DNA of 38,455 bases from Gemmata sp. (GTDB lineage Bacteria; Planctomycetota; Planctomycetia; Gemmatales; Gemmataceae): the NCBI GenBank assembly GCA_022843445.1, contig JALHNS010000017.1, positions 1 through 38,455 of the forward strand, given 5' to 3'. Shown here in pieces: positions 8,450 to 30,874 of the stretch. The translations under genes were made by a program, and so were the position numbers. The first letter of the stretch is position 1, and each line of letters opens with the position of its first letter. A model generated the notes under the pieces. The model had not been told where the DNA came from, did not search any database, and saw nothing but the letters and a program-made list of their open reading frames with translations.

Positions 8450-10618
8450 TCAGATCCGGTCGAGCGAGTCGGCCCAGTTCAGGAACTCCTCGAACGTCTT
8501 CAGGTCGAAGTACTCTTTGCCGCTCTCCTTCATCTCGCGGTAGATCACCGGGAACCGCTTCTCCTTGAGCAGGTCGCGGCCCTCCACGATGTCCTTCAAC
8601 AGCGGGTCCTTGTCGCCGGCCGCGATGAAGAACGACAGCGGCTGGTTCGCCACGTTGTCCTTCGGCGGGTTGCCCAAAGCCGCGCCCACCGCGCACACGC
8701 CGCGGAACACGTCGCGCGCGTTGAACCCCGTGTAGAACGCCATCTGCCCGCCGTTGCCCTGCCCGTGCGCGATCACCCGCGTGCGGTCGATCGTGTACTG
8801 GCCGAACACCGTCTTCACGTCTTGCACCACGGCTTCCGTTTCGCGCGGCACCCAGCCGTCGTTGCCGCTCGCCTTCGGCCCCATGATGATGAAGTGGTGG
8901 TCCTCGGCGAACTCGCGGAACGTCTTGGACATCTTCTCGCCGTCCTTGCCGCCGTCGCCGGCCTTGTGGAACCACACGAGCAGGCCGTGCGACACGTTCG
9001 GGTCGTAGTTGTCCGGGATGTACAGCCAGTACTCGCGCCCCAGCGCCGCGTCCGAGCGGTTCACGAACCCGGTTTCGACCTTCGGCTTGTCCTTCTTGTC
9101 GCCCTTCTTCTCGTCTTGAGCGCCGGCGCACGTGCCGCACTCTTCCGGCTTGCCGAACGGGTCTTTGGGGAACGGGTCTTTCGGCATCGGGTCTTTGGGC
9201 TTCGGTTGGCCCTCGAGCGCTTTGCCCGCCGACGACGGCAGCGGGAGCTTCTCCGGCACATCTTCCGGCGCGGGCACCAGCTTCGCGGTCAGCGTTTCCA
9301 CCTTCCCGTCGGCCTTGCGCTTCACTTCCACCTTCACTTCGGCGTTCGGCGCGGCGCGCTGGAGGGCCGCGAGCAGCGCGGCGCGGTTCTGAATCGGCAG
9401 CGGGGTCGCGCCACCGAACTTCATGATGCGATCACCGACCTTGATGCCGGCGGCGTCCGCCGGGCTTTTCGGGTACACGTACCGCACTTCCACGCCGGGG
9501 CCGGGGTCGTCGCGCATCGGCAGCACGCCGAAGAACGCGTTCACGTAGGCCGTGACCGTGCCGGACAGCTTGATACCCTTGATCTCGATCTCCTTGCCGT
9601 CGCGCAACACTTTGATCGAGATTTCGTCGCCCTCGTACAGCGGGCCCATCACGTGCTGGAGCGCGCTGTAGTTGGGGATCGGCTTGCCGTTGATTTCGAG
9701 AACCTTATCGCCCACTTTGAGGCCCGCGCGGGCCGCGGCCGAATCCGGTTGGACGGAGCCGATCACCGGTTGCACGTTGTAGGTGTCGGCGGTTTGCGGC
9801 GTGATGCCGAGCAGCCCGCGCTTCAGGTCTTTGCCCTCTTTGAGCCGCGGGAGCACCTTCATCACGTCCTCGAACGGCACCGCGAACCCGATGCCGCCGT
9901 CGTACACGTCCACGCCGGCGGTTTCGCCCTCGGCGCGGCTGCTCGCGGGCACGATCACGCCGAACACGCGGCCGTCGATGGAAATCAGCGGCCCGCCGTA
10001 GTTCACCGGCGAGGTCTTCGCGTCGGTCTGGTACGCCTTGCCCCAGATGCGGTTGGTCGCGCTGATGATGCCGGCGCTCATGCTCGGCGGGTGGTCGGCG
10101 TTGTTGTCGAGCGTGCGCCCCAGCGAGAGGCTCCACGCGCCGATTTCCACATCGGCCTTCGGCATCCCCTCGGGCACGGGGAGGCCCTTCGCGTCCACCT
10201 TGAGGAGCGTGAGCATGCGCGTCGTGTCGGTGGCGACGATCTTCGCCACGAGCCGCTGCGGGTTGCCGGGCACCGTGACGAAGATGTCCGACGGCTTGTT
10301 GGCGAAGTTGAACGCGCTGGACACGACGAACCCGTCCGGCGACACGACAAGGCCCGTGGTGGGGCCGACGCCCTTGCGCACGCCCTTCGGCGGCGGCGCG
10401 CCCGGCGGGCCGCCCTTCTTCGGCTCCACGATCGTTTCCGTGCCGCCGGCCGTTTCGATCTTCACCACCGCCGGCGCGACCTTCGCGCTCGCGGCCTTCA
10501 TGGCCTTCTCGGTGGCCTCGTTCACGTCCGGCTTCGGTTGCGCCGGCGCGGGCGCGGCGCACACGAGGGCGGCCGCTACCGCGGCCCACAGCCGCGCGCT
10601 AAAGACAGTGCGGAGCAT
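8450..10618 (-). CDS. Secreted pseudo-HtrA / double PDZ / degenerate alpha/beta-hydrolase fusion
   Basis: A 722-residue protein with four parts: a signal peptide (to about residue 27), a trypsin-like HtrA domain (45-255), two PDZ domains (about 265-350 and 357-450; SAAARAGLKVGDKVLEING and SPADAAGIKVGDRIMKF), and a Pro/Lys/Asp-rich linker with a CGTC pair (Cys494, Cys497). After these comes an esterase-like alpha/beta-hydrolase domain (about 520-722). Aligned by eye to the neighbouring active HtrA, the triad positions are Phe103 for His, Met135 for Asp and Tyr207 for Ser (NYGGPL instead of NSGGPL). In the hydrolase, the nucleophile elbow reads HGQGNGG with Gly621 where Ser is expected. An Asp is retained (AAGDKDPLL), and no catalytic His is seen near the end. 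Both domains therefore look catalytically dead, suggesting a binding or scaffold role. The start at 10618 follows a CA-rich leader without a Shine-Dalgarno sequence. Confidence 0.85.
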   Translation of the reverse strand: MLRTVFSARLWAAVAAALVCAAPAPAQPKPDVNEATEKAMKAASAKVAPAVVKIETAGGTETIVEPKKGGPPGAPPPKGVRKGVGPTTGLVVSPDGFVVSSAFNFANKPSDIFVTVPGNPQRLVAKIVATDTTRMLTLLKVDAKGLPVPEGMPKADVEIGAWSLSLGRTLDNNADHPPSMSAGIISATNRIWGKAYQTDAKTSPVNYGGPLISIDGRVFGVIVPASSRAEGETAGVDVYDGGIGFAVPFEDVMKVLPRLKEGKDLKRGLLGITPQTADTYNVQPVIGSVQPDSAAARAGLKVGDKVLEINGKPIPNYSALQHVMGPLYEGDEISIKVLRDGKEIEIKGIKLSGTVTAYVNAFFGVLPMRDDPGPGVEVRYVYPKSPADAAGIKVGDRIMKFGGATPLPIQNRAALLAALQRAAPNAEVKVEVKRKADGKVETLTAKLVPAPEDVPEKLPLPSSAGKALEGQPKPKDPMPKDPFPKDPFGKPEECGTCAGAQDEKKGDKKDKPKVETGFVNRSDAALGREYWLYIPDNYDPNVSHGLLVWFHKAGDGGKDGEKMSKTFREFAEDHHFIIMGPKASGNDGWVPRETEAVVQDVKTVFGQYTIDRTRVIAHGQGNGGQMAFYTGFNARDVFRGVCAVGAALGNPPKDNVANQPLSFFIAAGDKDPLLKDIVEGRDLLKEKRFPVIYREMKESGKEYFDLKTFEEFLNWADSLDRI

Positions 10619-10666
10619 AGTTGGTGTTATGTGGTTGTTTGTTATTTGTTGCTTGTTATTCGTTCT
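10619..10666 (-). promoter_or_regulatory. A/C-rich leader without Shine-Dalgarno, before the pseudo-HtrA fusion
   Basis: On the minus strand the roughly 45 bases before the ATG at 10618 consist of AAC/CAA-like units, for example ACAAATAACAAACAACC just upstream. They include a direct repeat at 10640-10650 and 10654-10664 that differs at one base. No GGAGG-like site is present. This is the most AT-rich patch among the protease genes. It may be an unstructured translation-enhancing leader or a small dispersed repeat. Confidence 0.5.
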
Positions 10667-10683
10667 TCGCACCCGGCCCGGCG

Positions 10684-11868
10684 TCACTTCTTCTCCGGCC
10701 CCGGGTTCGCCTTCGGCACGACCGGCGCCTTGCCCGGTTGCGCCGCGAGCGTCAGCTTCACCGTTTGCAGGCTCTCGCCGCGGCGCACTTCCAGTTGGAT
10801 CGCGGTGCCGGCGCGCGTGTTCTTGCCGATGAACTCGTTGAACGCCTTGATGCTGATGACCGGTTCGCCGTCCACGAAACTCACGAGGTCGTCCGGCCGC
10901 AGCCCGGCCTTCTCCGCGGGCGAACCGGGGATCACGTCCTCGATGTACGCGGGCGTGCGCTCGAGCACGTTCGGCACGAAGATGATGCCGTGGAAGCCGC
11001 CCGCGCCCGCGATCGGTTTGGGCCGTTCGAACTTCTTGTACTTGCCCTCCATCGCCGCCTTCACGAACTCCGGCATGGTGAGGGTCACGACCTTCTCCTC
11101 TTCCACGTCCTTGCCGTCCTTGTCCTTCACCGTCACGCGGGTTCGGATATCCGTCTTCGCCGTGATCGGGATCGCGTAGTTCATCCACGTGTCGGACTGC
11201 GTGTTCTTGATCTCCCGGCCGATGATGCCGAGCAGTTCGCCCTTGCGGTTCAAGAGCGCGCCGCCGGCCGCACCGGGGTTGTTGGTGATCGCGTCCACCA
11301 CGTACACGTCGCCGGTGTAGGGGAACTCGAACACCCCGCGCCGCCCGGCCATCTTCGCGTACGCGCTCACGACGCCCCGCTGCACGCTGAGCGGTTCGTC
11401 GCGCAGCGCGATCTCGAAGGTGTTCGAGAGCGCGAGCACCCAGTCGCCGGCCTCGGCCGGCGGGCGCTTCGCGGCCTCGAAGAAGTCGAAGTGGTCCAAG
11501 TCCAAGCCGTTCGGCTCGTCGATCTTCTTACCGTCCAAGCGAATCTTGATCAGCGCCACGTCCAGTTCCGGTTCGGTGGCCAGCACTTGCGCCTTGAGGC
11601 GCACGCCGTCGTAGGTGTGGACGACCAGTTCCGACGTGTCGAGCAGTTGGCTCGCCACGGTGAGAATGTGGCCGTCCTTGCTGACCAGAATGCCGGTGCC
11701 GTAGTTGTTGAGCCGCTGGAACCCGCCGGCCCCGAACACCTTCACCAACTTGCGGTTGGCGGTCTTCACGGTGTCGGCGAACGGGTCCGCGGCCGGCGCG
11801 CCCGGCACGAGCGCCACGGCGGCGACGGCGGCTACGAACAGCGTGCGTGTGAACATGGTGGTGCGCAT
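10684..11868 (-). CDS. Secreted HtrA-like pseudoprotease with one PDZ domain
   Basis: A 394-residue protein with a signal peptide (MFTRTLFVAAVAAVALVPGAPAA), a trypsin-like HtrA domain (about 35-240) and a C-terminal PDZ domain (about 290-375; GSPAEKAGLRPDDLVSFVDG). By-eye alignment to the intact neighbour shows the catalytic Asp kept (ELDVALIKI, Asp103). The His position is Ser73 (ILTVASQLL instead of LTNFHV), and the nucleophile Ser is Ala201 (NPGAAGGAL instead of NPGNSGGPL). It should not hydrolyse peptides by the serine-protease mechanism but may still bind substrates. A stretch KDKDGKDVEEEKV before the PDZ is a charged insertion. Two ATGs (11868 and 11856) are possible; the upstream one is given. 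It lies between the active protease (97 bases) and the dead fusion (65 bases). Confidence 0.87.
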   Translation of the reverse strand: MRTTMFTRTLFVAAVAAVALVPGAPAADPFADTVKTANRKLVKVFGAGGFQRLNNYGTGILVSKDGHILTVASQLLDTSELVVHTYDGVRLKAQVLATEPELDVALIKIRLDGKKIDEPNGLDLDHFDFFEAAKRPPAEAGDWVLALSNTFEIALRDEPLSVQRGVVSAYAKMAGRRGVFEFPYTGDVYVVDAITNNPGAAGGALLNRKGELLGIIGREIKNTQSDTWMNYAIPITAKTDIRTRVTVKDKDGKDVEEEKVVTLTMPEFVKAAMEGKYKKFERPKPIAGAGGFHGIIFVPNVLERTPAYIEDVIPGSPAEKAGLRPDDLVSFVDGEPVISIKAFNEFIGKNTRAGTAIQLEVRRGESLQTVKLTLAAQPGKAPVVPKANPGPEKK

Positions 11869-11887
11869 CGGGGGTGTTCGGTTTGGG

Positions 11888-11959
11888 GCGAACGGCCGGC
11901 GCGAGCCGGCCGGTGCGGCGGCGACGGGAAGAACCGGCCGGCTCGCGCCGGCCGTTCGC
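11888..11959. repeat. 27-base perfect inverted repeat with 18-base loop
   Basis: Arms at 11888-11914 and 11933-11959 are exact reverse complements (core GGCCGGCGCGAGCCGGCC). The element ends 5 bases from the stop of the active HtrA gene and begins 19 bases before the start of the next gene. It could attenuate transcription between the active protease and its dead paralogs. Confidence 0.9.
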
Positions 11960-11964
11960 CGCGC

Positions 11965-13767
11965 TCACTTCTCGGTCGTGTACTTCGTGACAGTGAGCGC
12001 CGCGTACCGCTTGTCGCGGTAGTGGACCACCATCTTGTGCGGCAGCTTGCGCCCGTCGACGGCCTTGTAGTCGTAGAAGTACACCTCGCACGGGTCGCGG
12101 TCCGCGGTGTCGTCGGCGTCGGGCGCGAGGTACGTCTCGAAGCCCAGCGGGGTGCCGTCGGGCAGCGCGAAGTACCACTTGCAGCTCACCGACCCGTGCT
12201 TGGTGGCGAGCACCGCGCAATCCACGCGCAGCGCGGCCAGCGACTTCGGCGCGGAGCCGTCCGCGGGCGGCGGGTAGAACGGTTCGTTCCCCGCGTGCGC
12301 GAACAGCCCCTCGAACCCCTTCGGCCCCACCGTCAGGAACCGGTGGTAGTGGTACAGGGCCATCATCAGCCCGCCGCTGCCGATCGGCTCTTGGCGCTGC
12401 ACGAGGTCGGTCTGCTTCAGCGGCTCGAGCGCGGTTTCGATGTTCAGCTTCATCGTCACCTTCGCGTTGCCGCCGGCCTCGGTCACCTCGGCCTTCATGG
12501 GGCCGTTGCGGTCGGCCATCTGGAACGTGCCCTCGAGCGCCCACTTGCCGGGCACCGCGGTGAAGTCGCCGAAGTTGTCCTTCACCTTCTTGAGCAGCTT
12601 GTCGCGCTCGAGCGCGTTGAAGTACCAGTTCGAGTACCCCTTGCGGGCCTCGTACATGCCGGCGGTCTCCGCGGGGCCGCCCTTCGGCACCGGCGGGCCT
12701 TTCGGCACCGGCGGGCCTTTCGGCACCGGCTGCCCGGGCTTCTCCACCTCTTTCGTCTGGTTCGGCATCAGCCGCACCAGCGCCTCGGCGCGCTCGTTGT
12801 TGCGCCGCACGACGAGCGGCAGCCGCCACTCTTTCGGGTAGATGCCGAGAATGTTCTTGTACTGGTTCGTGCTGGTGATCGCGCGGCCCGCGAACGAAAC
12901 CAACTGGTCGCCCTCCTTCAGCCCGCGGCGGAACGCGTCGCTCTCTTCGAGAATCTGCTTCACCACCATCTGCGCCAGCGGCGCGTCTTCGCTCGCGGTG
13001 CCCACGCTCGCGCCGAGCGTCGCGTGGTCGGTGTCGATGCCCGCGTACAGGTGCCCCATGAAGTTCTTGATCTGGTTGATCGAAATCGCGTAGCCCACGC
13101 CGCTGTTCACGCGGCCCCGCTTCTCGAACGAGCCGCGCCCGTTGATGCCGATCAGCTCGCCGTCCATGTTGAACAGCGGCCCGCCGGAGTTGCCGGGGTT
13201 GATCGACGTCTCGATCTGAATGCAGTCGGTGTACTCCAGCAGCCCCTTCCCTTCGGGCGGCTGGTACCGGTTCACCCCGCTCACGAGGCCGTACGTGACC
13301 GTGGGCGTGAAGTCCATCGCCAGCGAGAACGGGTTGCCCATCGCCAGCGACCAGTCGCCGGCCTTCACCTTGTCGCTGTCGCCGAGTTTCACGAACGGGA
13401 ACGGCTTACCCTTTTCCTTCGGCACCAGCTTGATGAGCGCCACGTCGCCCACTTTGTCGATGCCGCACACCACGGCCTTGTAGAGCACGCCGTCGGCGAG
13501 GCCGGCGGTGGGGAACGGCCCGGTGGGTTGCACCACGTGGAAGTTCGTGAGCGCGTAGCCCTCCGGGTCGATGAGGACGCCGGAGCCGCACCCGGAGCCG
13601 TCCGGCATGCACACCGCGACGACCGCGGGGTGAACCTTCTTAATGGCCGCGACGCGCTGCTTCTGCGCGTCCATCACGACCGGATCGACCGGGGCCGGCG
13701 CGGCCGGGGCCAGCGCGACCGCACCGAGCGCGGCGCACGCGGCGAACGGGAGCACGAAGCGGGTCAT
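11965..13767 (-). CDS. Secreted HtrA-type serine protease (S1C) with PDZ and extra C-terminal domain
   Basis: A 600-residue protein with a signal peptide (MTRFVLPFAACAALGAVALA) and an intact trypsin-like domain. The triad is His77 (LTNFHVV), Asp108 (VGDVALIKL) and Ser194 (NPGNSGGPL). A PDZ-like domain follows at about 245-335 (RRGLKEGDQLVSFAGRAI). Next comes a linker built from PVPKGP units (about 347-364), encoded by three 18-base tandem repeats. The last 225 residues or so form an unrecognised domain rich in beta-strand-like segments. HtrA proteases degrade or chaperone misfolded extracytoplasmic proteins. The ATG at 13767 is placed at the signal peptide; the frame extends back to 13902 through a repeat element and is rejected there. 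It is the only catalytically complete member of the three-paralog run. Confidence 0.92.
   Translation of the reverse strand: MTRFVLPFAACAALGAVALAPAAPAPVDPVVMDAQKQRVAAIKKVHPAVVAVCMPDGSGCGSGVLIDPEGYALTNFHVVQPTGPFPTAGLADGVLYKAVVCGIDKVGDVALIKLVPKEKGKPFPFVKLGDSDKVKAGDWSLAMGNPFSLAMDFTPTVTYGLVSGVNRYQPPEGKGLLEYTDCIQIETSINPGNSGGPLFNMDGELIGINGRGSFEKRGRVNSGVGYAISINQIKNFMGHLYAGIDTDHATLGASVGTASEDAPLAQMVVKQILEESDAFRRGLKEGDQLVSFAGRAITSTNQYKNILGIYPKEWRLPLVVRRNNERAEALVRLMPNQTKEVEKPGQPVPKGPPVPKGPPVPKGGPAETAGMYEARKGYSNWYFNALERDKLLKKVKDNFGDFTAVPGKWALEGTFQMADRNGPMKAEVTEAGGNAKVTMKLNIETALEPLKQTDLVQRQEPIGSGGLMMALYHYHRFLTVGPKGFEGLFAHAGNEPFYPPPADGSAPKSLAALRVDCAVLATKHGSVSCKWYFALPDGTPLGFETYLAPDADDTADRDPCEVYFYDYKAVDGRKLPHKMVVHYRDKRYAALTVTKYTTEK
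12683..12736. repeat. Three 18-base tandem repeats inside the HtrA gene
   Basis: The unit TTCGGCACCGGCGGGCCT occurs at 12683-12700 and 12701-12718, with a third diverged copy at 12719-12736. It encodes the PVPKGP repeats that link the PDZ region to the C-terminal domain. Copy number could vary by slippage and would change linker length without a frameshift. Confidence 0.85.
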
Positions 13768-14025: not shown

Positions 14026-15258
14026 CTACTTCTGCACGCGCGCGTCGGCGAAGGTCACGTAGTTGCCGTTCAGCGGGGTGTCGGCCTCCACGATGATGCG
14101 CAGCTGCTTCGCGCCCTTCACCGAGAGCACCACGCCCTTGCCCTTGTCCTTGCGCGCCACCTTCTCGCTGAACAGCACCTGCCCGTCGGCCTCGATCGTC
14201 ACCTTCGCGGCGCTGGTCGCGTTCGTGCCGTTCTCGTCGATGCCCACCGTCGCCTTGAACTGCGAGTAGTCGCCCTTCAGGTTGTACGTGAGCGCGGTGT
14301 CCGGGGCGACGCACAGCCCCTTCGGGAACTGCGCGCCGTCCAACTTGATCGGCTCGTTCGAGAGCGCCCGGTCGCGCAACACCGGCGCGACCGGCGTGAG
14401 GCGGCGCTCCTCGATCGGCACCTCCGGCGCGTCCACCTGCGGGTCGAGGTCCGACAGGTACGCGACGTTGCCCAGCGCGTAATCGAGCCGGGCCAGTTCC
14501 GCACTGCCGGCGTACTTCACCGTCGCGCCGCTCACCGTCGTCACCGTGACGCCGCCCTCCGCCGAGAGCGCCACACCGGCCGCGATCAGCACGTTCCCGT
14601 ACACGTCCGCGACGCGGCACAGCGTGGGCGCGACGGCCATCGGCGGCGGCTGGTAGAACACCAAGCCCGCGCACCGCGACAGCCGCAGCGTTTCGTCTTT
14701 GCCGTCGGACTCCTTTTCGAGCGTGATCTCGGTGCCGTCGGCCGAACCGCCCTTCACGGTGCCCTGAATGTAGGTGAAGCCGTTCTCTTGGGCGACCACG
14801 TAGAGGTCGCGCTTGCCGCGGGTGGCGAGCATCTTCTTCCAGTTCTCGCGCGCCTTCGGGTCCTCGGCCCTCTTCATCGCGCTGAACACGGCACCGGTGG
14901 GCAGGTCGGCGGCGGGGCCGCCGCCGGCCAGCGCGTCGAGCGTCACGGCCTTGCCCTTCACGCCGAACTTCGCGCCGCGCAGGATCGACCCGTCGGTCAG
15001 TTCGACTTCGGTGAACGTGTCCTTCGGCAGCGGGCGCACCTTGTTGCCCAGATCGACCACGACGATGTCGCGGGCCGGGATCTCGACGAGCGCGCTTTCG
15101 AGGCGGAGCGACACGCCCTTCGCGTCCACCGCGGCGAGCTTGCCGCTGATCTTCTTGCCGGCGGTGGTGGTCACATCGTCGGCCGTGACCGGCACCAGCG
15201 GAACCGCCACGAGCGCGAGCGCGAGCGCGAAACGGGGTAGCCGGCGGGTGCGGCGCAT
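14026..15258 (-). CDS. Secreted protein with C-terminal NPCBM/NEW2-type carbohydrate-binding domain
   Basis: A 410-residue protein with a signal peptide (RFALALALVAVPLVPVTA). The N-terminal region has two small beta-barrel-like repeats (KKISGKLAAVDAKGVSL and VELTDGSILRGAKFGVKG). The C-terminal portion (about 275-410) matches the NPCBM/NEW2 pattern: FPKGLCVAPDTALTYNL, FKATVGIDENG, VTIEADGQVLF, and a closing NGNYVTFADARV. NPCBM domains bind carbohydrate, often at galactose-type residues, in secreted glycosidases and surface proteins. No catalytic domain is seen. The context, between the secreted coiled-coil genes and the HtrA run, suggests a cell-surface binding factor; that is inference. Confidence 0.82.
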   Translation of the reverse strand: MRRTRRLPRFALALALVAVPLVPVTADDVTTTAGKKISGKLAAVDAKGVSLRLESALVEIPARDIVVVDLGNKVRPLPKDTFTEVELTDGSILRGAKFGVKGKAVTLDALAGGGPAADLPTGAVFSAMKRAEDPKARENWKKMLATRGKRDLYVVAQENGFTYIQGTVKGGSADGTEITLEKESDGKDETLRLSRCAGLVFYQPPPMAVAPTLCRVADVYGNVLIAAGVALSAEGGVTVTTVSGATVKYAGSAELARLDYALGNVAYLSDLDPQVDAPEVPIEERRLTPVAPVLRDRALSNEPIKLDGAQFPKGLCVAPDTALTYNLKGDYSQFKATVGIDENGTNATSAAKVTIEADGQVLFSEKVARKDKGKGVVLSVKGAKQLRIIVEADTPLNGNYVTFADARVQK

Positions 15259-15372: not shown

Positions 15373-16476
15373 TTAGCGCTTGTTGTAGCCGTGCAGCTTG
15401 TCGAGCGCCTCGAAGTAGTTCTTGATCATCGGCTCGAACTTCGCCGGCAGGTCGCGGGTGATTTCCTTCACCACTTGCGCCCGCTTGTCGGCCGGGAGGC
15501 TGCCCCACTGCTCGGCGATCTGGCGCAGTTGCTTTTCGTCCACGCCGCCCTTGCCGCTGCCGCCCATGATCATGCTGTCCGGGGCCGGCTGGCTCGGGTT
15601 GATGTTGCTGCCCGGCTTGTTGCCTTGGCCCGGCTTGTCGCCACCGCTGGGGCACGCGCCGCCGTTCGCTTGGCCCTGCTGCTTCTGCTGGTTCTCGATC
15701 TGCTTGATCAGTTCGTCGAGCCGGAACACGATCTTCTTCTGGATGTCTTGGGTCTTCTCGCCGCCCTTGGCGATCTCGAGCCGCCGGCCGCTGTTGTCCA
15801 TCAGCTTTTCGATGTTCGCCAAGTCCTTGGGGTCCGGCGACCAGTTCTGCATGTCGAAGAACATCAGCGTGGCGACCATCGTGTAGCGGGCCGGCGTGTC
15901 GGCCACTTCGTCGAGCAGCTTCACGATGGAACCGGTCGCGGCGTCCTTCTTCATGGTCGCGTGTTCGGCGACGGCCTTGAAGAAGAAGAAGGTCGCGGGG
16001 TCCACGGCCTCTTCCGGGTTCACGCCGCGAAGGGCCTCGATGGCCTCTTCGTAGGCCTTCTTGTTCGCGGCGGCCTTGGCGAACGCCAGGGCCACGTTCG
16101 CGCGGAAGAAGGCGCTTTCCTTTTCGTTGGTCAGCGCGCCGGGCAGTTCGGCCGGGGCCAGCGCGTTCGGGTTGCGGACGTTCGCCAGCAGCGCCTGCAC
16201 CTCGGTGTTGCCGATGGCGAGCGCGTCGGCGGTGCGGTCGAGCACCGTGCGGCCCTCGGCGGCCCACACCGCGTCGAACGCCTTCTGGTCGAACTTGCCG
16301 GCGGCCTTCAGCCACGCTTCGGTCTTGGCCTTCGCGGCCTCGACGGTCGCGGCCTTCATCGTGCTGAACCCGAACGCCGGCTTCTTCGACGACGCGGGCG
16401 CGGGTTCGGCGGCGAGCGCCGGGGCGGCGGTGCCGGCGAAGACGGCAGCAGCCGCGAGCCACTTACGAATCTTCAC
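15373..16476 (-). CDS. Secreted alpha-helical protein of unknown function
   Basis: A 367-residue protein that I do not recognise as a known family. It starts at a GTG with a good GGAG site 8 bases upstream, and TATAAT at 16489-16494 lies 12 bases before the start. The N-terminus is a signal peptide (KWLAAAAVFAGTAAPALA). The body is mostly helical, with a Gln/Gly/Pro/Asn-rich linker at about 240-275 and a helical C-terminus ending in YNKR. It follows the coiled-coil protein in the MoxR/VWA locus and shares its pattern of helices joined by a low-complexity linker. A periplasmic partner of that locus is a reasonable guess. The ATG at 16542 would add a non-signal N-terminus and is not preferred. 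Confidence 0.78.
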   Translation of the reverse strand: MKIRKWLAAAAVFAGTAAPALAAEPAPASSKKPAFGFSTMKAATVEAAKAKTEAWLKAAGKFDQKAFDAVWAAEGRTVLDRTADALAIGNTEVQALLANVRNPNALAPAELPGALTNEKESAFFRANVALAFAKAAANKKAYEEAIEALRGVNPEEAVDPATFFFFKAVAEHATMKKDAATGSIVKLLDEVADTPARYTMVATLMFFDMQNWSPDPKDLANIEKLMDNSGRRLEIAKGGEKTQDIQKKIVFRLDELIKQIENQQKQQGQANGGACPSGGDKPGQGNKPGSNINPSQPAPDSMIMGGSGKGGVDEKQLRQIAEQWGSLPADKRAQVVKEITRDLPAKFEPMIKNYFEALDKLHGYNKR

Positions 16477-16660
16477 GACTTGCTCCAGATTATAGGGTGA
16501 ACGTGCGGAGAGTTTCAACCGACCCGCACCGGGCCGCCACAAGTGCGACGCACGGCGCGGGAAAAGCTAACCGAGATTACCCTCACCACCGACCGGGCAC
16601 AACAGTTTACCGCAACACCACAAGCGATTCCTCACAATTCTCTCACCAACGGCAACTCCA

Positions 16661-16733: not shown

Positions 16734-18740
16734 TTACTGGTTCGCTTGCGTCGCGATCTTGTGCAGCAGGTCTTGCAGCACCTTTTGGCGCTCGGCCAGC
16801 ACCTTCAGTTCGGCCTGAATGAGCGCGTCCTTCGCTTGCTCGCCGGGGTCCTGCATGTTGTACATGATCGTCCGCTTGTTCACCTGCTCCTGTTGGGCCT
16901 TGAGCAGTTTCAGTTCGTTCAGCAGGTCGAGCAGCTTGTTGTTCTGCTTCTGCGCGTTCGGATCGCCGTCCTTCGGGTCGCTCGGCTTGTTCTCGAGGTC
17001 CTGCTTGGCCTTCTTGAGCGCCTCCTTCATCATTTGCAGTTGGTCGATGATGTCCTGCTCGATGGCCTGCGTGTCTTTGCCCACGCGGGTCTCGTTCAGG
17101 CGGCGCTGCACGGCCTCCATATCGCGCTTCACTTCGGTCAGCACGCCGGCGAACACCACGGCCGAACCTTCGCCCTCCATCAGTTTGAGCGCCTTCTCGG
17201 CCTCGGAGACGATGTTGGCCTCCTTGTCGGCTTCGGCTTGGCTCTTTTGGATCTCCGCCACCGCCGGCTTGCCGCCGAGCGCGGTCACGGTCTTGTCGAT
17301 GTTCTCGGTCGCGGCCTTCACCTCGATCTGCATGCGGAGCATGCGGGCGACGCGCTCTTCGAGGTTCGCGAGCAGCTTCGCGAGTTCCTTTTCGCGCAGT
17401 TGCTTCAGGCGCTTTTCGAGTTCCGCGATGGCCTTTTCCAGTTGCTTGATCGCGTCGTCTTGCTTCTTGGACGCTTGGTCGCGCTGGTCCTTCTTGATGT
17501 TGTCTTCGGCCTCTTCTTGGTTCGGCACGGCCTGTTGGACGTTCTCAGCGGCCGGGTCCTTCGGGCCTTGCGGCTTGGGCGGCTGGTTGCCACCGCCCTG
17601 CTGACCGCCGCCCTTCGAGCCGCCGGGGCTGGGTTGGCCCATGCCCATCCCGCCCATGCCCATCCCGCCGCCGTCCATCGGCTTGGCTTCGCCGCCCTGA
17701 CCGGCGCTCGGTTTGCCCTCGCCCTTGCCCGCGCCTTGCGGCTTGCCCTCGCCGCCCATCGGCGGGCCGGCCTTCGGGTCGCCGCCCATCGGCATCCCCA
17801 TCCCGCCCATCGGCATACCGGGTTTCGGTTCGCCGGCCTTGGGGTCGCCGCCCTTGGGGTCGCCACCGGCCTTCGGGTCGGTCGGCTTGTCGCCGCCCTT
17901 CATGTCCCCGCCCATCCCCTCCATGCCGCCGCTCGGCTTGCCCTCGCCGGCCTTGTCGCCGCCCATCGGCATGCCCGTGCCCATGCCCATCCCGCCGTCT
18001 TTGCTCTCGCTCTTGTTCGCGTCGGTGTCCGGCTTCGCGGCCCCGGTGTCTTCGCCCGGCTTCGGCTCGCTCTTCGATTCCGACTTCGGGTCTTCCTTCG
18101 CGCCGCCGCCGTTCGGGTTGCCGCCCTTCGGGTCGTTCTTGTTCGCGTTCTTGTCGAGCGCGTTGCCCACGTCCTTCGTGCGCTGCGCGAGGTCCTTTTG
18201 GTCCTTGGCGATCTTGTTCGGGTCGCCGTTGGGGTTCTCGGTGCGGGCGCGGATGTTCGCCTGCTCGTCGCGCAGCTTCTTGATTTCGGCGATGGCCTTC
18301 TTCAGGTCCGCGATGTCGCGCGCGATGCGGGCGGCCTCGTCCTCGGTTTCGAGAACGGCCAGAATCTCCTCGAGCGCCGCGATCAGCTTCTTGTCTTTGC
18401 CGAGCAGCGTGTTCAGGTCGCCGGGGGTGAACGCCTTCGCGCCCAGCCCTTCGATCAGCTCCTTGAACAGTTTCTCGACGCCCTTCTCTTCCATCAACTT
18501 GAGCGCCCCGCGGAGCGACTTCGCGCGCTCTTTGTCCTCGGTGTTGTCGCTCTTCTCCCAGCGCTGGGCGAGGCGCAACACCTCTTCGGAGAACCGCTTG
18601 AAGAGCTTCAGGTTCTCTTCTTGGGTGCGCTTGATACCGCCCGTGTCGGTCGGTTGGGCCGACGAGTTCGGGGTGAGGGCGAACAGCCCGAGCGCCGCGG
18701 CGAACGCGAGCGGCATGAAACCGGGCAACCTGCGGAGCAT
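16734..18740 (-). CDS. Secreted coiled-coil protein with long Met/Gly/Pro/Lys-rich linker
   Basis: A 668-residue protein with an N-terminal hydrophobic signal (FMPLAFAAALGLFAL). There are two helical, heptad-rich halves (about 35-200 and 400-668; for example IKQLEKAIAELEKRLKQL). They are separated by a roughly 200-residue low-complexity linker (about 200-400) made of units such as GMGMPMGG, DPKGGDPKAG and EGKPSGG. I recognise no enzyme motif. It is encoded 144 bases after the DUF4175-like protein, and genes of this kind (Gln/Lys/Glu-rich coiled coils) accompany that membrane protein in planctomycete MoxR/VWA loci. It probably spans or bridges the periplasm. The linker is the most compositionally biased coding stretch in the window. 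Confidence 0.85.
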   Translation of the reverse strand: MLRRLPGFMPLAFAAALGLFALTPNSSAQPTDTGGIKRTQEENLKLFKRFSEEVLRLAQRWEKSDNTEDKERAKSLRGALKLMEEKGVEKLFKELIEGLGAKAFTPGDLNTLLGKDKKLIAALEEILAVLETEDEAARIARDIADLKKAIAEIKKLRDEQANIRARTENPNGDPNKIAKDQKDLAQRTKDVGNALDKNANKNDPKGGNPNGGGAKEDPKSESKSEPKPGEDTGAAKPDTDANKSESKDGGMGMGTGMPMGGDKAGEGKPSGGMEGMGGDMKGGDKPTDPKAGGDPKGGDPKAGEPKPGMPMGGMGMPMGGDPKAGPPMGGEGKPQGAGKGEGKPSAGQGGEAKPMDGGGMGMGGMGMGQPSPGGSKGGGQQGGGNQPPKPQGPKDPAAENVQQAVPNQEEAEDNIKKDQRDQASKKQDDAIKQLEKAIAELEKRLKQLREKELAKLLANLEERVARMLRMQIEVKAATENIDKTVTALGGKPAVAEIQKSQAEADKEANIVSEAEKALKLMEGEGSAVVFAGVLTEVKRDMEAVQRRLNETRVGKDTQAIEQDIIDQLQMMKEALKKAKQDLENKPSDPKDGDPNAQKQNNKLLDLLNELKLLKAQQEQVNKRTIMYNMQDPGEQAKDALIQAELKVLAERQKVLQDLLHKIATQANQ

Positions 18741-18884: not shown

Positions 18885-21800
18885 TCACTTCACGACCACC
18901 GGGTACTCGACCGGGTCGCCGACCGCGGGCGTGACGGTGATCTTGTAAGTGCCTTCCTTCGCGCCGGCCTTCACCTCGTACTCGAACCGGAACTGGTTCT
19001 TCTCGAAGTCCAGTTTCAGTTCGCCCGGTACCACGATCGACGGGTCCGACGCCGTCACCTTCACCACGATGTCGTCTTTCGGGTACTTGTTCCACTGGAT
19101 CGCCTGCGACACCTTGCGCGTTTCGCCCTTGTTGAGCGCGAGCGCGCCGACCGCGCCAACGGTCGGGGCTTCCTTCGAGAGTTCCCCTTCGATCTTCCGC
19201 TGGTACGCGAGCACTTCCACGCTCACGCGCTTTTGCTTTTCGAGCAGCGCGCGGAGTTCGCGGCGCAGTTGTTCCGGCCCGCGGTTCTCGCCGAACAGTC
19301 CGCGGATGTACTTCACGCGGGCTTCGAGTTTGAACAATTCGTCCTCGGCATCGGTGACCGCGGCCAGCGGCGCCCAGCGGCCCACGTTCAGGACGTTCTG
19401 AACGCCGAGCAGTTTGTTCTGCGCCTTCGGGTAGTTCACCGTGTCCGGGCTTTCGACTACCACCGAATCGATCAGGGCCGCGTTTTTGCGGTACGTGTTC
19501 AGCGCCGCTTCGTTCAAGCGGTTGACCTCGCACTCGCGCACGAGGCGCTGGAACTCGCGGCCCACGCTCTGCACCAAGTCGCGGGACTTGTCCACGTCCT
19601 GAATGGCGTCTTGGCACCGCACTTTCACCGAATCGACCTGTTCGGGCACCTCGTCGCGGTACCCGTTCGACTCGCGCACGAACTTGTACTTCTGCTTGGC
19701 GGTGGCGAGTTTGACCAGCGCGTCGTCGAGTTTCAGCACCAGCGCCTCTTCCTCCTTGCCAATTTCCGCGAGCAGGTCGCTGTCGGAGACGATGCGCAAG
19801 CGGATCGGTTCGGTGTTGCGCACCACGTTCGGCCCGCCCTCGCGGTCCACGTTCGTGTCGGTGGCCGCGACGTACAGGTCGAACCGGTAGATGGTCTGCA
19901 CGTCCTCGTTCGATTTCGCCGCGAGTTTGAGCAACCCGGCGTCGTGCAGTTGCTTCAGGTCGAAGTAGTCGCGGTTCGGGTTGTCGAAGGCGAGTTTCAG
20001 GACGCTGCGCTTGCTCGCGTCCGCGGCCGGGGCGTCGACCTTCGGTTTGGTCAGCGCGTCCTTGAACGCCGCGCTCACCTCGCGCTGGAGCGCGTTCTGC
20101 AGTTCGAGGAAGTAGGCGATGTCCGCCTCGCCCTTGCGCCGCCCTTCGGTTCCTTCCACGGCGCGCATGTTCTCCATGTGCTTGACCGAGGCGAGCGGGG
20201 CCACACCGGCCCCCGGCGTCGGCACCTCGAACGCGCGGAGCAGCATCTTCGCCCGCAGGGCCTTCACCACGTCGGAGTCTTCGGCCGAGTACTCGAAGGC
20301 GAACAGCAGGCTTTGCAGGCCGCGGTCGTCCTTCACGAAGCTGGCCGGGTCGAACGGGATGCGCGCGTTCGGCGTCACCATGTAGGAGTTGCCCACCTTG
20401 CGGATCACGTCCACGGCCACTTCCACCGCGGGCGGCGCGTCTTCGGTCGCCTGCACCACGAACGTGCGCGCGCTCGGCACGTTGTACTTGTTCGCCCACT
20501 CCACCTTGAATTCGACCTTCTCGGTGACGCGGAACGCGCCTTCAAAGGTCACGCTCCACTTGGAGCCGTCGGCTTCCACCGTCAGCGGCACGCGGGCCTG
20601 CGTGGGCCGGCCCTCGGCGTCGAGCACCGTGCCCGGGAACCGGCCGCTCACCGGGATCGCCTCGGCGCGCACGATCGCGTCGGTGTCGGACACGGTGCCG
20701 TCGTCGGCGGCGAACGCCTCGCCCGCGACGACCAACTTGGTGCCCGCGGGCACCGCGAACACCGTGCGCTCGCCGGTGGGCGTCATGCCAATCGGGGCGA
20801 TGTGCTGGAACTTGCCCTTGAGCGCCGCGTAGCCGATCGGTTCGTTCGGTTCCGCGGGGTCCGGCACGGGCGGCGCGTGGTGCAGGTATGCCGGCTCCCA
20901 CTGCTCGCGGTACAGGCGCTTCAGCGACGGCGGCGGGATCGGGCGGATGCGCTTGGGCGGGGTGGCGAAGTCTTCGCCGCGCACCGCGAACGCGACCGTT
21001 TCTTGCGGAGTCTTGCCGTTGCGGTCGGCCACCACGCCCACGAACGTGCCCTCTTGCAGCGCCAGTTCGCCGGAGCCGGCGGTGGTGCGCCCGGTGAACT
21101 TGTACGTGACCGTTTCGGGGAAGTCGAGCTTGCGCACCGTGCGGCCCGCGCTCGGTTCCGCCGCGCGCTCCGCCAGCGCCTTGAACGCCTCTTGCGCGAG
21201 GCCGAAGTTGCCGCTGCCGAACTCGGCCATGAGCTTGGTCCGGGCCGCGGCCAGTTCGGCGCTCGCGTCGTCGGTTTCGACGAGCAGCCGCTCGAGGTCG
21301 TCCACGTAACGGCCCGGCAGCGGCGGCGCGGGGCGGCCCGCCAGTTCGCCCACGTCGTCCCACATCAGGGGCCGCCACCCGACCGGGGCGGCGCGGTCCG
21401 CCTTCACCCACTGGAACGCGCGGGCGCGGATCTTCGGCGGCTCGGGCGAGTCGCGGCCCACGGTCAGCTCGCCGCTCTCGGGGAACCCGACCAGTTCGAG
21501 GTGCGCCCGGCGGGGCCAAGGCGTGTCCTGCAGCAGCAGGTCCCGCTCGGCCAGAATGCCGGCGGTGTGCGCGAACTTCCACGCGAACCGGCCCGGGCTG
21601 GCGCTCTTGGTGGCGACGGCGTGGCTGACGAAGCCCACCGCCACCGTGAGCACCGGCACCAGCACGGCCAGCGCGCCGATCACCCACAGCCGCCGCCAGT
21701 TGAATACCTCGCTCACCGGCACTTTCGCCACCCGCTCGCGGGCCTCCGCGATGGTGGCGTTTATCATGTCCGCGGAGTAGCCGAACTTCGCCATGCCCTT

Positions 21801-22193
21801 CACGTCGGCCAGTTCCACCGCGGTGATGAGCCGGTCGCCGAGCAGTTTGGGGAACTTGCGCTCCAGCACCAGCGCCAGCGCGGGGTACGAGAACTCCGTG
21901 GCGAGCCGCCGGGCGATGCGGAAGAACAGCACCGCCGCGAACAGCAGCGCCGCGACGACGAGCGCCGCGGCGCGCAGGCCCTTCGCGCCGTCTTGCACCC
22001 AATCCCAGCCGGTGGCCTTGAACAGCACGAAGTCGAACAGCATGGCGAGCGCGAACCAGAGCGACAGGAACAGGGCCGCGGACAGCGCGCCCTCGACGAC
22101 GACGTAGCGGCGGATGGTGCCGCGCAACCGGTCGAGCGGGTGCAGCACTTGCGGGTCGGCGGCGGAGCGGGGCGGCTGCTGAGCGGTAGACAT
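18885..22193 (-). CDS. Large DUF4175-like membrane protein
   Basis: A 1102-residue protein. Two closely spaced membrane spans lie near the N-terminus (about 34-56 and 73-92) and a third at about 168-192 (VIGALAVLVPVLTVAVGFV). About 900 extracytoplasmic residues follow, with beta-sandwich-like strands and a helical section, and the C-terminus resembles an Ig-like fold (VKAGAKEGTYKITVTP). The N-terminal layout resembles DUF4175-type proteins found with MoxR/VWA operons. The segment ALVLERKFPKLLGDRLITAVEL between spans two and three is typical of them in my recollection. Biochemical role is unknown; a membrane scaffold for the VWA complex is inferred. The ATG has no clear ribosome-binding site. 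It starts 99 bases downstream of the VWA/GATase-like gene. Confidence 0.82.
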   Translation of the reverse strand: MSTAQQPPRSAADPQVLHPLDRLRGTIRRYVVVEGALSAALFLSLWFALAMLFDFVLFKATGWDWVQDGAKGLRAAALVVAALLFAAVLFFRIARRLATEFSYPALALVLERKFPKLLGDRLITAVELADVKGMAKFGYSADMINATIAEARERVAKVPVSEVFNWRRLWVIGALAVLVPVLTVAVGFVSHAVATKSASPGRFAWKFAHTAGILAERDLLLQDTPWPRRAHLELVGFPESGELTVGRDSPEPPKIRARAFQWVKADRAAPVGWRPLMWDDVGELAGRPAPPLPGRYVDDLERLLVETDDASAELAAARTKLMAEFGSGNFGLAQEAFKALAERAAEPSAGRTVRKLDFPETVTYKFTGRTTAGSGELALQEGTFVGVVADRNGKTPQETVAFAVRGEDFATPPKRIRPIPPPSLKRLYREQWEPAYLHHAPPVPDPAEPNEPIGYAALKGKFQHIAPIGMTPTGERTVFAVPAGTKLVVAGEAFAADDGTVSDTDAIVRAEAIPVSGRFPGTVLDAEGRPTQARVPLTVEADGSKWSVTFEGAFRVTEKVEFKVEWANKYNVPSARTFVVQATEDAPPAVEVAVDVIRKVGNSYMVTPNARIPFDPASFVKDDRGLQSLLFAFEYSAEDSDVVKALRAKMLLRAFEVPTPGAGVAPLASVKHMENMRAVEGTEGRRKGEADIAYFLELQNALQREVSAAFKDALTKPKVDAPAADASKRSVLKLAFDNPNRDYFDLKQLHDAGLLKLAAKSNEDVQTIYRFDLYVAATDTNVDREGGPNVVRNTEPIRLRIVSDSDLLAEIGKEEEALVLKLDDALVKLATAKQKYKFVRESNGYRDEVPEQVDSVKVRCQDAIQDVDKSRDLVQSVGREFQRLVRECEVNRLNEAALNTYRKNAALIDSVVVESPDTVNYPKAQNKLLGVQNVLNVGRWAPLAAVTDAEDELFKLEARVKYIRGLFGENRGPEQLRRELRALLEKQKRVSVEVLAYQRKIEGELSKEAPTVGAVGALALNKGETRKVSQAIQWNKYPKDDIVVKVTASDPSIVVPGELKLDFEKNQFRFEYEVKAGAKEGTYKITVTPAVGDPVEYPVVVK

Positions 22194-22292: not shown

Positions 22293-25200
22293 TTACGCCA
22301 AGCGCAGCAACTTGCGGCCGATCCACTCGATCGACAGCAGCAGCGTTACCAGCAGCAACACATAGGAGAGCTGCCGGCCGAGCCACCAGTCCAGCGAGTA
22401 CTTCGCCGGCGGGTTCTGCGGGTCGATCTCCTTGAACACGAACCCGCGGTCCCACAGTTCGTGGACCGGGCCGCGCGTCTGGCTCTGCCGCTTCTCGGTC
22501 TTCATGCACTGCGGGATCAGCTTCAGCGCCTCGCGGTTCTCGAGGCGAAACGCCAGCTTCTGAATCGCGCCGTCGCGCGGCAGCACCTTGCCCAGTTCGC
22601 CGTCGGTGGTGCCGGTCAGTCGCGCGCGGAAGTCCTTGTCGAAGTCGGAGGCCATCTTCAGCATGGCGGCGAAGTCCGGCTTGGTGTTGTCCATTTCCGG
22701 GTCGGAGCGGCGCACGCGGAACTCGCCGGTGAGTTGCTCGCCCGCCGCGTCGGGCACGTCCACCACCACGCGGTACACGAAGTCGCCCGGCGGGAACTGC
22801 TTGGGGTCCAGTTGCACTTGGCCCGCGTAGTACCCGTCGAAGGCGCCCGACGGCGGCACCTTCGCGGCCAGCTCGAACGGGCCGTACTCGGCCTTCTTGC
22901 CGTCCGGCGCTTCTTGGATCACCTTGAACTTCGGGTCGATGCGGCCCACCTCGTAGGGCTTGGCGCTCTCGTTCAGGATGCGCGCCTGCACGCGCATCGG
23001 GCCGCCGCTCACGCCCTCCTTGCCCACCAGCACGCGGCCCCGCGGCGCTTTGAAGTTGCGCTTGGCGGCCGCGTACTTCATCAGCTTCACCCAGAACCGC
23101 TCGTAGAACTCGCGGCCGGTGTTGTTCTCCGGCTCGTACACGCGCAGCCGCCACAGGTCGGACGACGCGAGGAACACCGAGCGGTACGGCGACAGCGGGT
23201 TGTTCGTGACCAGCCACGGCACCCGCTGCGCTTCGCCGTTGTCGCCCACGCCGCCGAACTCCGCGAGCACCGCGCTCTGCGGGCGCACGTCCTTAATCGG
23301 GTACGCGGAGAAGAACCCGCGGCGCGGGAACAGCTCTTCTTTCAGGTCCGCGCTCGGGGCGTACTTGTCGCGGTCGGTGAAGAACCGCTCCCAGCCGGCG
23401 ATGGGGTCGTCGGCCACTTTGTCGTCGAGTTTCAGCAGGTCCGAACCGATCAGCCGCTCCGGGTGCATGTACAGCCGCCGCGGGGTGCGGGCCGACGCCT
23501 GAATGTTCCGCGCGATGATGTCGGCCGGGACCACCGGCAGCAGCCCCAACAGGCCGCTCAGCCGCCCGCCCTCTTCCACGCGCGCCATTTGGAACGTGTG
23601 GATCGGCCCCGCGACGTACAGCAGCCCGCCGCCGCCCTCCTTCACCCACCGGGCGAGGTCTTCCGCTTGCGCCTGCGACAGTTCCGTCCAGTCCGGGTCG
23701 AACGCGATCAGCACGTCGTACTCGTTCAGGTTGTACGGCCGGTCCGCCTCGTCCACCTTCTTGTTGGTCAGGTCCAGCTTGTTCGGGAACCGCAAGACGA
23801 TCTTCTCGTCCGCTTCGGGCGTCAGCTTGCCGGTGGTGCCGGCCTCGTTCTGCACGAACGTGGTGAGCGTGGCCCGCTTGTCTTGCACCTCGCGCACCAG
23901 CATGGTGCGGAGGAACGAGAAGTCGCGCGACGGCGCGCCGGCCATCAGCAGGATGCGCAACTTCTGCTGCACGACGTTGATGTCCGGGCGCTCGCGGACG
24001 TGTTCGGCCTCGGCGAACGCCTCTTGCGGGTCTTTGGCGATGCGCGCCCGGGCGCTCCACTTGCCCTCCAGCAGCACGCGCTTCTTGATGGCCGCGTCCT
24101 TGGATTCGGTGGTGAGGCTCTCGGGCAGCTTCGCGGGGTCGATCACGAACTCCGCTTGGCCGTGCGGCGGGTCGCCCGGCGCGAACGTCAGCTTCTCCTT
24201 CAGCGTGTGGTCGGCGGTCCCCTTCTTCAGGTCGTTACCGGGCTTGAACAGGTCGAGGAACACTTCCACTTCCTTGTTCGCCAAGTTCACCCCGTCGGCC
24301 TCCACGACGATCTTCCACGCCTCGTCCACGGGCGCGCTGTCCGGGGCCTGCACTTCGGTGATGGCGATGCTCGCGGCCTGCCGGTCCTCGCCCACCACCA
24401 CGGTGAACACCGGAATCTTCTCGCGGCCGGCGCGGTCGCGCAGCTCGTTCAGGCTCGTCTCGGAGCCGAGGTTGCTGCGCCCGTCCGAGAACACGACGAT
24501 GCCCTGTACCATGTTGGACGACTCGCGGTTCACCGCCGCGGTAATCGAATCGGGCACGTTCGTGCCCCGCGCGATGGTGCGGGCCACGTCGAGCCGCTTG
24601 TCGAGCCGGTCGAGCGCCTTGCGGAGCTTCTCGGCGTCTTCGGCGCTCAGGCCGAAGGCGCTCAGGAACGCTTGGTCCTCGCGCCGGGTGAAGAGGCGCG
24701 CGGCCCAGTCCGCTTCGCCCGCGCCCTTCTCCGCCCATTCGGGCGACTTGCGCAACTGCCCCGCGCCTTCCGGCGACAGGTCGCGGGTGAGGAACGGGCG
24801 GAAGTCGTAGCTGGCGAACGCCTCCCACTCGGCCTTCGCCCACGCGGGGTCCGTCGGCGCGATCACCGTCGGCGACTCGTCGAGCCGGGTGCCGATCGCG
24901 TACACCGCGACCGGGTTCTTGTCGAGCAACTGCTTCACGAACGCGACGTTCTCGTCGGTCAGGAACTCGATCAGCACTTCCATGCGCGTCTTCGGCTTGC
25001 GGGCCGTGTTGGCGCTAACCTCGTCGGTCACCTTCGTCAGGCTGTCGCTGATGTCGAGCAGCACCACCACTCGCGACTGCTTGTTCGTGGTCTCGAACGT
25101 CTGCATCGCGGGCAGCAGGAACACGAAGCACAGGATGGCGTATACCGTGATGCGCAACAGCGCGAGCGGCACCGCGAAGTACCAGCGGACGGTTTTGGTG

Positions 25201-29815: not shown

Positions 29816-30874
29816 CTAGCTGGCGAAAATCTTCTGGAACCGCGGGTCGGAGAGCAGCGAGCCTTCCTTCTCCGGCGTCTCGTCGATCAGCTTCTTCACG
29901 ACGGTGTCGGTGGTCACGCCCTCGCTGGCCGCGGTGAAGTTCGGCAGAACGCGGTGCCGCAGCACCGGGTACGCCAGCGCCTTGATGTCCTCGGTGGTGA
30001 CGTGCGCGCGGCCGTACAAGAGCGCCCGCGCCTTGCCGCCGAGCACGAGGTTCTGCACCGCCCGCGGCCCCGCGCCCCAGCTCAGCCAGTCCTTCACGAA
30101 CTTCGGCACCCCCGGCTCGCCCACGCGGGTCTGCCGCACCAGCGCCAGCGCGTACTGGATCACGTGGTCGGTCACCGGCACCTTGCGCACGAGGTTCTGG
30201 ATCTCTTGGATCTGCTCGCCGCTGAGCACCGGTTGGATCTCGTCGGCCGCCACGCCCGTGGTGCGCCGCGCGATCTCGAACTCTTCGTTGAACGACGGGT
30301 ACTTCACGTACACCTTGAACATGAAACGGTCCTGCTGCGCCTCGGGCAGCGGGTACGTCCCTTCCTGTTCGATCGGGTTCTGGGTGGCGAGCACGAAGAA
30401 CGGGTTCGCCAGCTTGTGCCGCACGCGGCCCACCGACACTTGGCGCTCTTGCATCGCCTCGAGCAGCGCGGCCTGCGTGCGGGGCGGCGTCCGGTTGATT
30501 TCGTCCGCGAGCACCATGTTGGCGAACAGCGGGCCGGGGCGGAACAGCAGCTCGAAGCTGCCGGTCGCCGGGTTCTTCTCGATGAAGTCGGTCCCGGTGA
30601 TGTCCGCGGGCATCAGGTCCGGGGTGAACTGGATGCGGCTGAAGTCCAGCGACAGGCACCGCGACAGCGTGCTGATCATGAGCGTCTTCGCGAGGCCCGG
30701 CACGCCTTCCAGCATGCAGTGCCCCTTGCTGAAGAGCGCGATCAGCAGCTCCTCGATCACCATGTCCTGCCCGACGATGACGCGGGTCAGTTGCTTCTTG
30801 ATGTTGTCGAAGGCCGACTTCAGCTTCTGGATGGAGTCGATGTCGGACTGCGCCATTTGCCCGGTGCTGCTCAT
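29816..30874 (-). CDS. MoxR-family AAA+ ATPase
   Basis: A 352-residue protein with Walker A GVPGLAKT (residues 57-64), Walker B VLADE (121-125) followed by [16 protein letters not shown], and a sensor region [18 protein letters not shown]. The layout fits the MoxR branch of AAA+ ATPases, chaperone-like motors that mature or remodel complexes with VWA proteins. The first ATG gives [11 protein letters not shown]. It lies 166 bases downstream of the terpenoid-cyclase-fold gene, after an intrinsic terminator, so the MoxR-to-DUF4175 unit probably has its own promoter in that gap. DUF58, BatA and VWA partners follow directly. Confidence 0.95.

Follow-up and report, generated by a model that had tools for sequence, protein, structure and literature searches.

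An HtrA-type protease gene followed by two dead paralogs in Gemmata, retained together across much of its class

Introduction

Why would a bacterium keep two copies of a protease that have lost the residues needed for cutting, directly beside a copy that has retained them? The question is raised by a stretch of 38,455 nucleotides from Gemmata sp. (family Gemmataceae, class Planctomycetia), which is one contig, JALHNS010000017.1, of a 7.39 Mb assembly in 636 contigs (GCA_022843445.1) and is called the window here. Three adjacent open reading frames (ORFs) on its minus strand encode HtrA-type proteins, and we refer to them in the order of transcription as gene 1, gene 2, and gene 3; 96 bases lie between genes 1 and 2 and 65 bases between genes 2 and 3. 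A preliminary description, made from the sequence of the window alone, had read them as one active enzyme followed by two paralogs that had progressively lost catalysis. The reading that we favor, and regard as reasonably probable, is that the three genes encode one envelope protease module, in which a catalytic gene 1 product is accompanied by two anciently dead paralogs kept as non-catalytic partners.

Results

The HtrA assignment of the three consecutive genes was confirmed by matches to the Pfam family Trypsin_2, all above its cut-off of 27.6 bits (102.2 bits for gene 1, 72.7 for gene 2, and 56.4 for gene 3). Gene 1 has the triad previously assigned to it at the expected positions: His77 (13537-13539), Asp108 (13444-13446), and Ser194 (13186-13188). 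For gene 2, the preliminary description gave Ser73, Asp103, and Ala201. Asp103 (11560-11562) and Ala201 in place of Ser (11266-11268) stand, and which residue lines up with the catalytic His varies with the alignment: the ungapped phmmer alignment to solved HtrA chains puts Ser73 there, and in the hhalign comparison with the gene-1 profile an inserted residue shifts Gln74 to that position (11647-11652 for the two codons), so that neither register gives His. Gene 3 carries Phe103 (10310-10312), Met135 (10214-10216), and Tyr207 for Ser (9998-10000), which is the replacement of all three triad residues that had been reported.

Proteins of the HtrA/Do family have at least one PDZ domain, and the claim that all three products have one holds by the Pfam cut-off for gene 2 (one PDZ) and gene 3 (two); in gene 1 the PDZ match reaches 18.8 bits against a cut-off of 27, and it is the HtrA family profile that aligns across this region (residues 58-342). 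None of the three reaches the curated cut-off of the Do subfamily model TIGR02037 (206.1, 112.8, and 157.3 bits for genes 1, 2, and 3; cut-off 416.2), and with the MamO model NF040961, whose cut-off is 800, gene 2 reaches 33.6 bits. All three N-termini resemble Sec signal peptides when judged by eye, in agreement with the earlier reading. The fold is retained in both dead paralogs, as had been proposed: in structure comparisons, the models of genes 2 and 3 have a predicted DegQ/DegP fold, with a low-confidence linker at residues 475-510 of gene 3, and the Foldseek and VIA lists for the whole gene 3 model are filled by HtrA and PDZ chains. After its PDZ, gene 1 continues for about 210 residues (11965-12600) that match no Pfam family above cut-off and are present in the Gemmataceae alignment.

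The same positions were read in orthologs from three samples, namely regions from 80 of the 87 other Gemmataceae genomes having gene 2, plus the window; 40 regions from 19 other families of the class (f2, f4-f6, f8-f14, f16-f23); and 20 regions from other classes of the phylum, picked because the gene-3 profile matched there. Overall tallies were taken from profile-assigned ORFs (132, 135, and 133 rows for genes 1, 2, and 3). Gene 3 of locus L129 is frameshifted (a 15-aa frame) and appears in these counts as a gap or stray letter, and rows at contig ends appear as gaps.

Gene 1 is a live enzyme by its residues throughout. The Gemmataceae alignment has His in 73, Asp in 74, and Ser in 74 of 77 rows, the remainder being gaps; the 19 other families have them in 36, 36, and 37 of 37 rows; and all three residues are found in each of the 19 other-class regions (of 20) where the gene is present. 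The full triad is thus seen in 127 of 132 rows overall, with gaps at triad columns in the other five.

Genes 2 and 3 have been replaced at these positions in two different ways. The Ser column of gene 2 is Ala in 65, Gly in 15, and Ser in 1 of 81 Gemmataceae rows, and Ala in 30, Gly in 4, His in 2, and Asn, Thr, Gln, or Ser in one each of the 40 class rows; at the Asp position, 80 of 81 Gemmataceae rows keep Asp, and most of the class rows have Glu (23) or Asp (15). In gene 3, Tyr takes the place of Ser in 78 of the 80 rows of the Gemmataceae alignment (2 gaps), together with Phe in 77 and Met in 74 at the other two positions. The same Tyr is present in 33 of 34 class rows, in 17 of 20 rows from other classes (Thr, Ser, and Val in the others), and in 127 of 133 rows overall, with an Asp column that is variable outside Gemmataceae. 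His and Ser occur together in none of the 135 gene 2 rows and none of the 133 gene 3 rows, and Ser at the nucleophile column is confined to gene 2 of loci L109 and L241 and gene 3 of locus L315, all without His. Orthologs with a normal triad were looked for across Gemmataceae, the class, and the other classes, and none were found; likewise, the sequence alignments place an intact triad in neither paralog. Judged by these columns, genes 2 and 3 are non-peptidase homologues, and the pattern within the class is one of an active-site pocket that is emptied in gene 2 (mostly Ala or Gly) and plugged in gene 3 (Tyr with Phe).

Column 74 of gene 2, next to Ser73, is His in 34 of 81 Gemmataceae rows and not in the window. 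An alternative triad through this shifted His was rejected as a catalytic arrangement because no row combines His and Ser.

Three loci from other classes (L313, L314, and L315) hold divergent sets. The gene-3-like protein of L315 keeps Asp and Ser and has Phe for His, and these sets may possibly represent earlier stages of catalytic loss.

A feature missed by the preliminary description is the hydrolase-like C-terminus of gene 3 (about residues 517-722). Residues 527-646 match the type 1 short-chain polyhydroxyalkanoate depolymerase model NF050058 with 44.4 bits (cut-off 150), and this region lacks the combination of GxSxG nucleophile and catalytic His that goes with the model; in the window, the nucleophile position is Gly621 (8756-8758). 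Over the 80 Gemmataceae rows, the nucleophile column is Gly in 58, Ala in 11, Asp in 5, Ser in 1, and a gap in 5, the Asp column is Asp in 74, and the His column is Lys in 39, Arg in 18, and His in 8. The nucleophile column of the 34 class rows has Ser in 2, gaps in 2, and is otherwise widely varied. With these replacements, the domain is probably non-catalytic and gene 3 is probably a double pseudoenzyme. Gene-3 matches outside the class mostly cover the protease domain and first PDZ only. The single Gemmataceae row with Ser at the hydrolase nucleophile column is that of gene 3 in locus L108.

To place the dead copies relative to the live one, we built a quick maximum-likelihood tree of 148 protease domains, in which every second class locus was omitted, the phylum rows were assigned to gene 1, 2, or 3 by motif, and branch support is from the SH-like approximate likelihood ratio test (SH-aLRT) only. 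Gene 2 (42 rows) and gene 3 (46 rows) each occupy one side of a branch with SH-aLRT 99, and one group (SH-aLRT 97) takes in 43 of the 46 gene 1 rows; the three outside it are the live members of L313-L315. The dead members of these three sets join beside the gene 3 group (97) or the gene 2 group (95), and the placement of two of them is unsure since long branches meet there. The progressive loss of catalysis proposed earlier is not what the tree shows; there are instead two separate deep dead clades. The ratio of nonsynonymous to synonymous substitution (dN/dS, NG86 method) is 0.015-0.24 for all three genes in Gemmataceae pairs, with no consistent difference between live and dead copies; 19 pairs were tried, truncated frames or saturation left some values blank, and several of the dS values obtained are at saturation.

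Genes 1 and 2 are nearly always found or missing together. Gene 2 is present at E <=7e-64 in 88 of the 95 Gemmataceae genomes (39 genera), and the 7 others have a weak match or none. Among the 397 genomes of the class, in searches that scored the best 5 candidates per genome for gene 2, 3 for gene 1, and 2 for gene 3, gene 2 (E <=1e-20) was found in 339 and gene 1 (E <=1e-75) in 335; 334 have both, 57 have neither, and 6 have just one (gene 1 in G034; gene 2 in G025, G080, G086, G106, and G342), all six being drafts of 330-790 contigs. The corresponding gene 3 tally, 391 of 397, includes matches at the level of ordinary HtrA and is not used as a gene 3 count. Family f3, which may be Isosphaeraceae, has no genome among the gene-2 matches at E <=1e-20, and in 12 of its genomes the gene-1 profile match is missing at 1e-40 or no better than 5e-50, a level that we take for ordinary HtrA. 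Genes 1 and 2 have therefore been lost together in f3, and the family is a natural control for the function of the gene set.

Within the stretches examined, all three genes lie on one strand in 75 of 80 Gemmataceae loci, and the other five are without gene 1 or, in L094, gene 3. Genes 0 and -1 (Table 1) are usually ahead of the trio. Neighboring genes are mostly less than 400 bases apart, although two loci have some 5 kb separating gene 1 from gene 2. One locus, L211, is on a contig titled Bacteroidales bacterium with Gemmataceae-type genes 2 and 3, which probably reflects a wrong title or a mixed bin.

Pairwise distances of the five cluster genes all correlate at 0.79-0.92 over 72 genomes, as shared descent predicts. 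The partial distance correlations in the same genomes, given with no significance test, are 0.47 for genes 1 and 2, 0.54 for genes 1 and 3, and 0.08 for genes 2 and 3.

The trio is part of a longer same-strand cluster (Table 1), in which MoxR, DUF58, and BatA genes all lie on the strand of genes 1-3. We examined 19 upstream stretches of about 19.5 kb each, 10 of them from Gemmataceae. In 13 of them the trio is preceded by MoxR on the same strand, and each of the 13 also has DUF58 and BatA; no MoxR match is found within the other 6 stretches. In many lineages, though not in every one, the trio therefore makes up the distal portion of a MoxR/Bat-type cluster. At locus L304, from another class, MoxR and DUF58 immediately precede gene 1.

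Table 1. Features of the window in the HtrA trio and the same-strand cluster around it
Feature	Positions	Strand	Basis
Gene 1: active HtrA-type protease, 600 aa	11965..13767	-	Trypsin_2 above cut-off, intact triad
Gene 2: HtrA pseudoprotease, 394 aa, one PDZ	10684..11868	-	Trypsin_2 above cut-off
Gene 3: HtrA pseudoprotease, 722 aa, two PDZ, C-terminal hydrolase-like domain	8450..10618	-	Trypsin_2 above cut-off
Gene 3, C-terminal alpha/beta-hydrolase-like domain, residues ~517-722	8453..9070	-	NF050058 below cut-off
Gene 0: NPCBM-domain protein, often upstream of gene 1	14026..15258	-	Pfam
Gene -1: no Pfam match, frequent neighbor, start codon uncertain	15373..16542	-	Pfam
Protein without Pfam match, same-strand cluster member	16734..18740	-	
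Large protein without Pfam match, cluster member	18885..22193	-	
Large protein with sub-cut-off vWA match, cluster member	22293..25610	-	
BatA-type (aerotolerance regulator N-terminal) protein	25716..28685	-	
DUF58/vWA protein	28735..29679	-	
MoxR-type AAA+ ATPase	29816..30874	-	
Squalene-hopene-cyclase C-terminal domain match, cluster member	31041..32291	-	
PQQ-repeat protein, weak TPR, cluster member	32450..37441	-	

A PQQ protein encoded downstream of the trio (7057-8418) was considered as part of the module and rejected: it has no match in the 80 Gemmataceae loci, as far as these loci reach, and one weak match, in L223, among 80 loci with longer flanks; the contig scan, run with Gemmataceae patterns, retained the best 80 of 397 loci. 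No RNA family was found within the window at the gathering threshold. The spacer between genes 1 and 2 contains a GC-rich inverted repeat (11891-11956), and its 20-base arm has 36 copies in the genome with <=1 mismatch, 18 per strand, compared with 0 for the control. Because of these copies, several of which stand in facing pairs, the repeat looks like an element of the repetitive extragenic palindromic (REP) type.

Discussion

The set of one live and two dead copies recurs across the class, and the dead copies are therefore probably kept for a role other than cutting. HtrA enzymes form trimers and are switched through PDZ binding, so in the envelope module that we favor the products of genes 2 and 3 would most likely act on that of gene 1, be it as subunits of a mixed oligomer or as regulators or substrate receptors that grip client peptides by their PDZ domains. 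The MoxR, DUF58, BatA, and vWA genes upstream would assign the module to a system of envelope assembly or stress. We infer the partnership from the trimeric nature of HtrA, the need for the dead partner MamO in MamE-dependent proteolysis (see below), the co-occurrence of the genes, and the distance correlations.

A more specific form of this reading is possible, and we offer it as tentative. Most of the class would have an obligate hetero-oligomeric HtrA with a built-in division of labor. Cutting would fall to one subunit, and two dead subunits of ancient origin, one with its active site emptied and the other tyrosine-plugged, would use their PDZ and dead hydrolase domains to sense client or stress signals and would pass control on to the catalytic subunit, with a MoxR/vWA membrane machine encoded upstream.

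Several observations weigh against a module of live enzyme and dead partners. The emptied pocket of gene 2 fails as a description outside the class, because the Ser column there is Gln (5), Pro (4), Tyr (3), Phe (2), or Asp (1) in the 15 of 20 regions to which the profile assigned a gene 2. The distribution outside the class is also patchy: 220 of 294 phylum genomes have no gene-3 match at 1e-45, and of the 74 that do, 21 are in the class. Within the stretches examined, 34 of the 40 class loci have the trio on one strand, and one or more genes, gene 1 or gene 3 among them, are missing at L241, L242, L245, L252, L253, and L256. In genome G051 (loci L094 and L296), a single 9.38 Mb contig has gene 3 at 8.45 Mb and genes 1 and 2 at 1.11 Mb; gene 3 has been kept there at a distance of at least 2 Mb even if the contig is circular, and linkage is therefore not obligatory. 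Genes 2 and 3 also have partial correlations of 0.44 and 0.33 with gene -1, which is not an HtrA gene, and in the class rows the simple correlation of gene 2 is highest with gene -1 (0.92, vs 0.87 with gene 1). Finally, in the two-dead-one-live Csp system of clostridia, the two dead proteins are described in PMC12880746 as forming a complex together without the active one.

The best surviving alternative, which we consider unlikely, is that the dead copies have taken on a task that has nothing to do with gene 1, such as binding of a ligand, metal, or polymer or holdase chaperoning, and were kept because all genes of the cluster serve one pathway. This would account for the retention of the non-HtrA genes 0 and -1 beside the trio, for the second dead domain of gene 3, and for the correlation of gene 2 and 3 distances with gene -1, and MamO itself, according to passages of PMC4794232, binds metal directly, separately from its activation of MamE. 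However, it leaves the nearly constant co-presence or co-absence of genes 1 and 2 unexplained, and the partial correlations of both dead genes peak with gene 1, although for gene 2 only slightly (0.47 vs 0.44).

Less likely still, genes 2 and 3 could form a pseudoprotease sensor pair that acts upstream of gene 1 without joining it. The clostridial Csp proteins, of which CspC and CspA form a heterodimer (PMC12880746), have the same one-live-two-dead arrangement, and 34 of 40 class loci contain both gene 2 and gene 3. A pair of this kind is hard to reconcile with the near-zero partial correlation between genes 2 and 3, and the Csp proteins are subtilisin-like and so have another fold.

It is very improbable that the dead copies cut by other residues, such as Tyr or a shifted His, and are not pseudoproteases at all. 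The near invariance of the gene 3 Tyr (77 of 79 profile-assigned Gemmataceae rows, with 2 gaps, besides the class and other-class counts above) and the conservation in Gemmataceae of the gene 2 Asp alongside the frequent His at column 74 might be taken in its favor. To our knowledge, though, no trypsin-fold peptidase uses Tyr, the gene 2 nucleophile column has Ser in just 2 of 135 rows, both without His, the gene 2 Asp gives way to Glu in more than half of the class rows, and gene 3 has a variable Asp column outside Gemmataceae and never His with Ser. Recent strain-specific decay of duplicated htrA genes, to which the lost triads alone might point, is rejected, given the same substitutions in Gemmataceae, 19 further families, and other classes, one clade for each dead lineage, and the low dN/dS.

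A live enzyme and two dead paralogs, each of which has settled on particular replacements in its active site, have stayed associated here while a class diversified, and their link to copies in other classes is visible in the tree. This makes a large natural data set for asking what a dead protease is for, and a concrete way into envelope and MoxR gene clusters that are little understood in planctomycetes.

How does the trio compare with known systems? DegP, DegQ, and DegS are HtrA proteins with catalytic residues, unlike genes 2 and 3. Arabidopsis Deg5 and Deg8 are also two HtrA paralogs in one compartment and form a hetero-complex, but both are described as proteases, with no dead pair. The MoxR/Bat (aerotolerance) clusters have MoxR, DUF58, and BatA on one strand, as in the window; Bat proteins of Leptospira and vWA proteins beside MoxR in Borrelia are described in this literature, whose abstract openings make no mention of a pseudo-HtrA trio. 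A survey of PDZ proteins reports, in the passages seen, an expansion in planctomycetes; those passages say nothing of dead copies, and the word 'inactive' is absent from the survey. Our literature search, which covered open-licence PMC papers mainly by title and the start of the abstract, found no description of the trio.

Two further systems combine live and dead proteases. In CspB/CspA/CspC of clostridia, as in the trio, one active protease is accompanied by two pseudoprotease paralogs, which regulate it or sense signals. These proteins act in spore germination and have a subtilisin-like fold, and CspA is fused to CspB; we know of no homology between Csp proteins and HtrA. Our reading of genes 2 and 3 as likely non-catalytic partners or regulators of a live HtrA in the cell envelope is comparable to MamE/MamO (and LimE/LimO) of magnetotactic bacteria, where MamO is required for MamE-dependent proteolysis (passages of PMC4794232). 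That system has one dead partner per live enzyme, and MamO carries a C-terminal transporter domain; the trio, by contrast, includes a pair of dead copies, bears PDZ domains and a hydrolase-like domain that is also dead, and sits in another gene cluster. A dead paralog beside a live HtrA was thus already known, and what is new here is the double form with a second dead domain, retained across a class.
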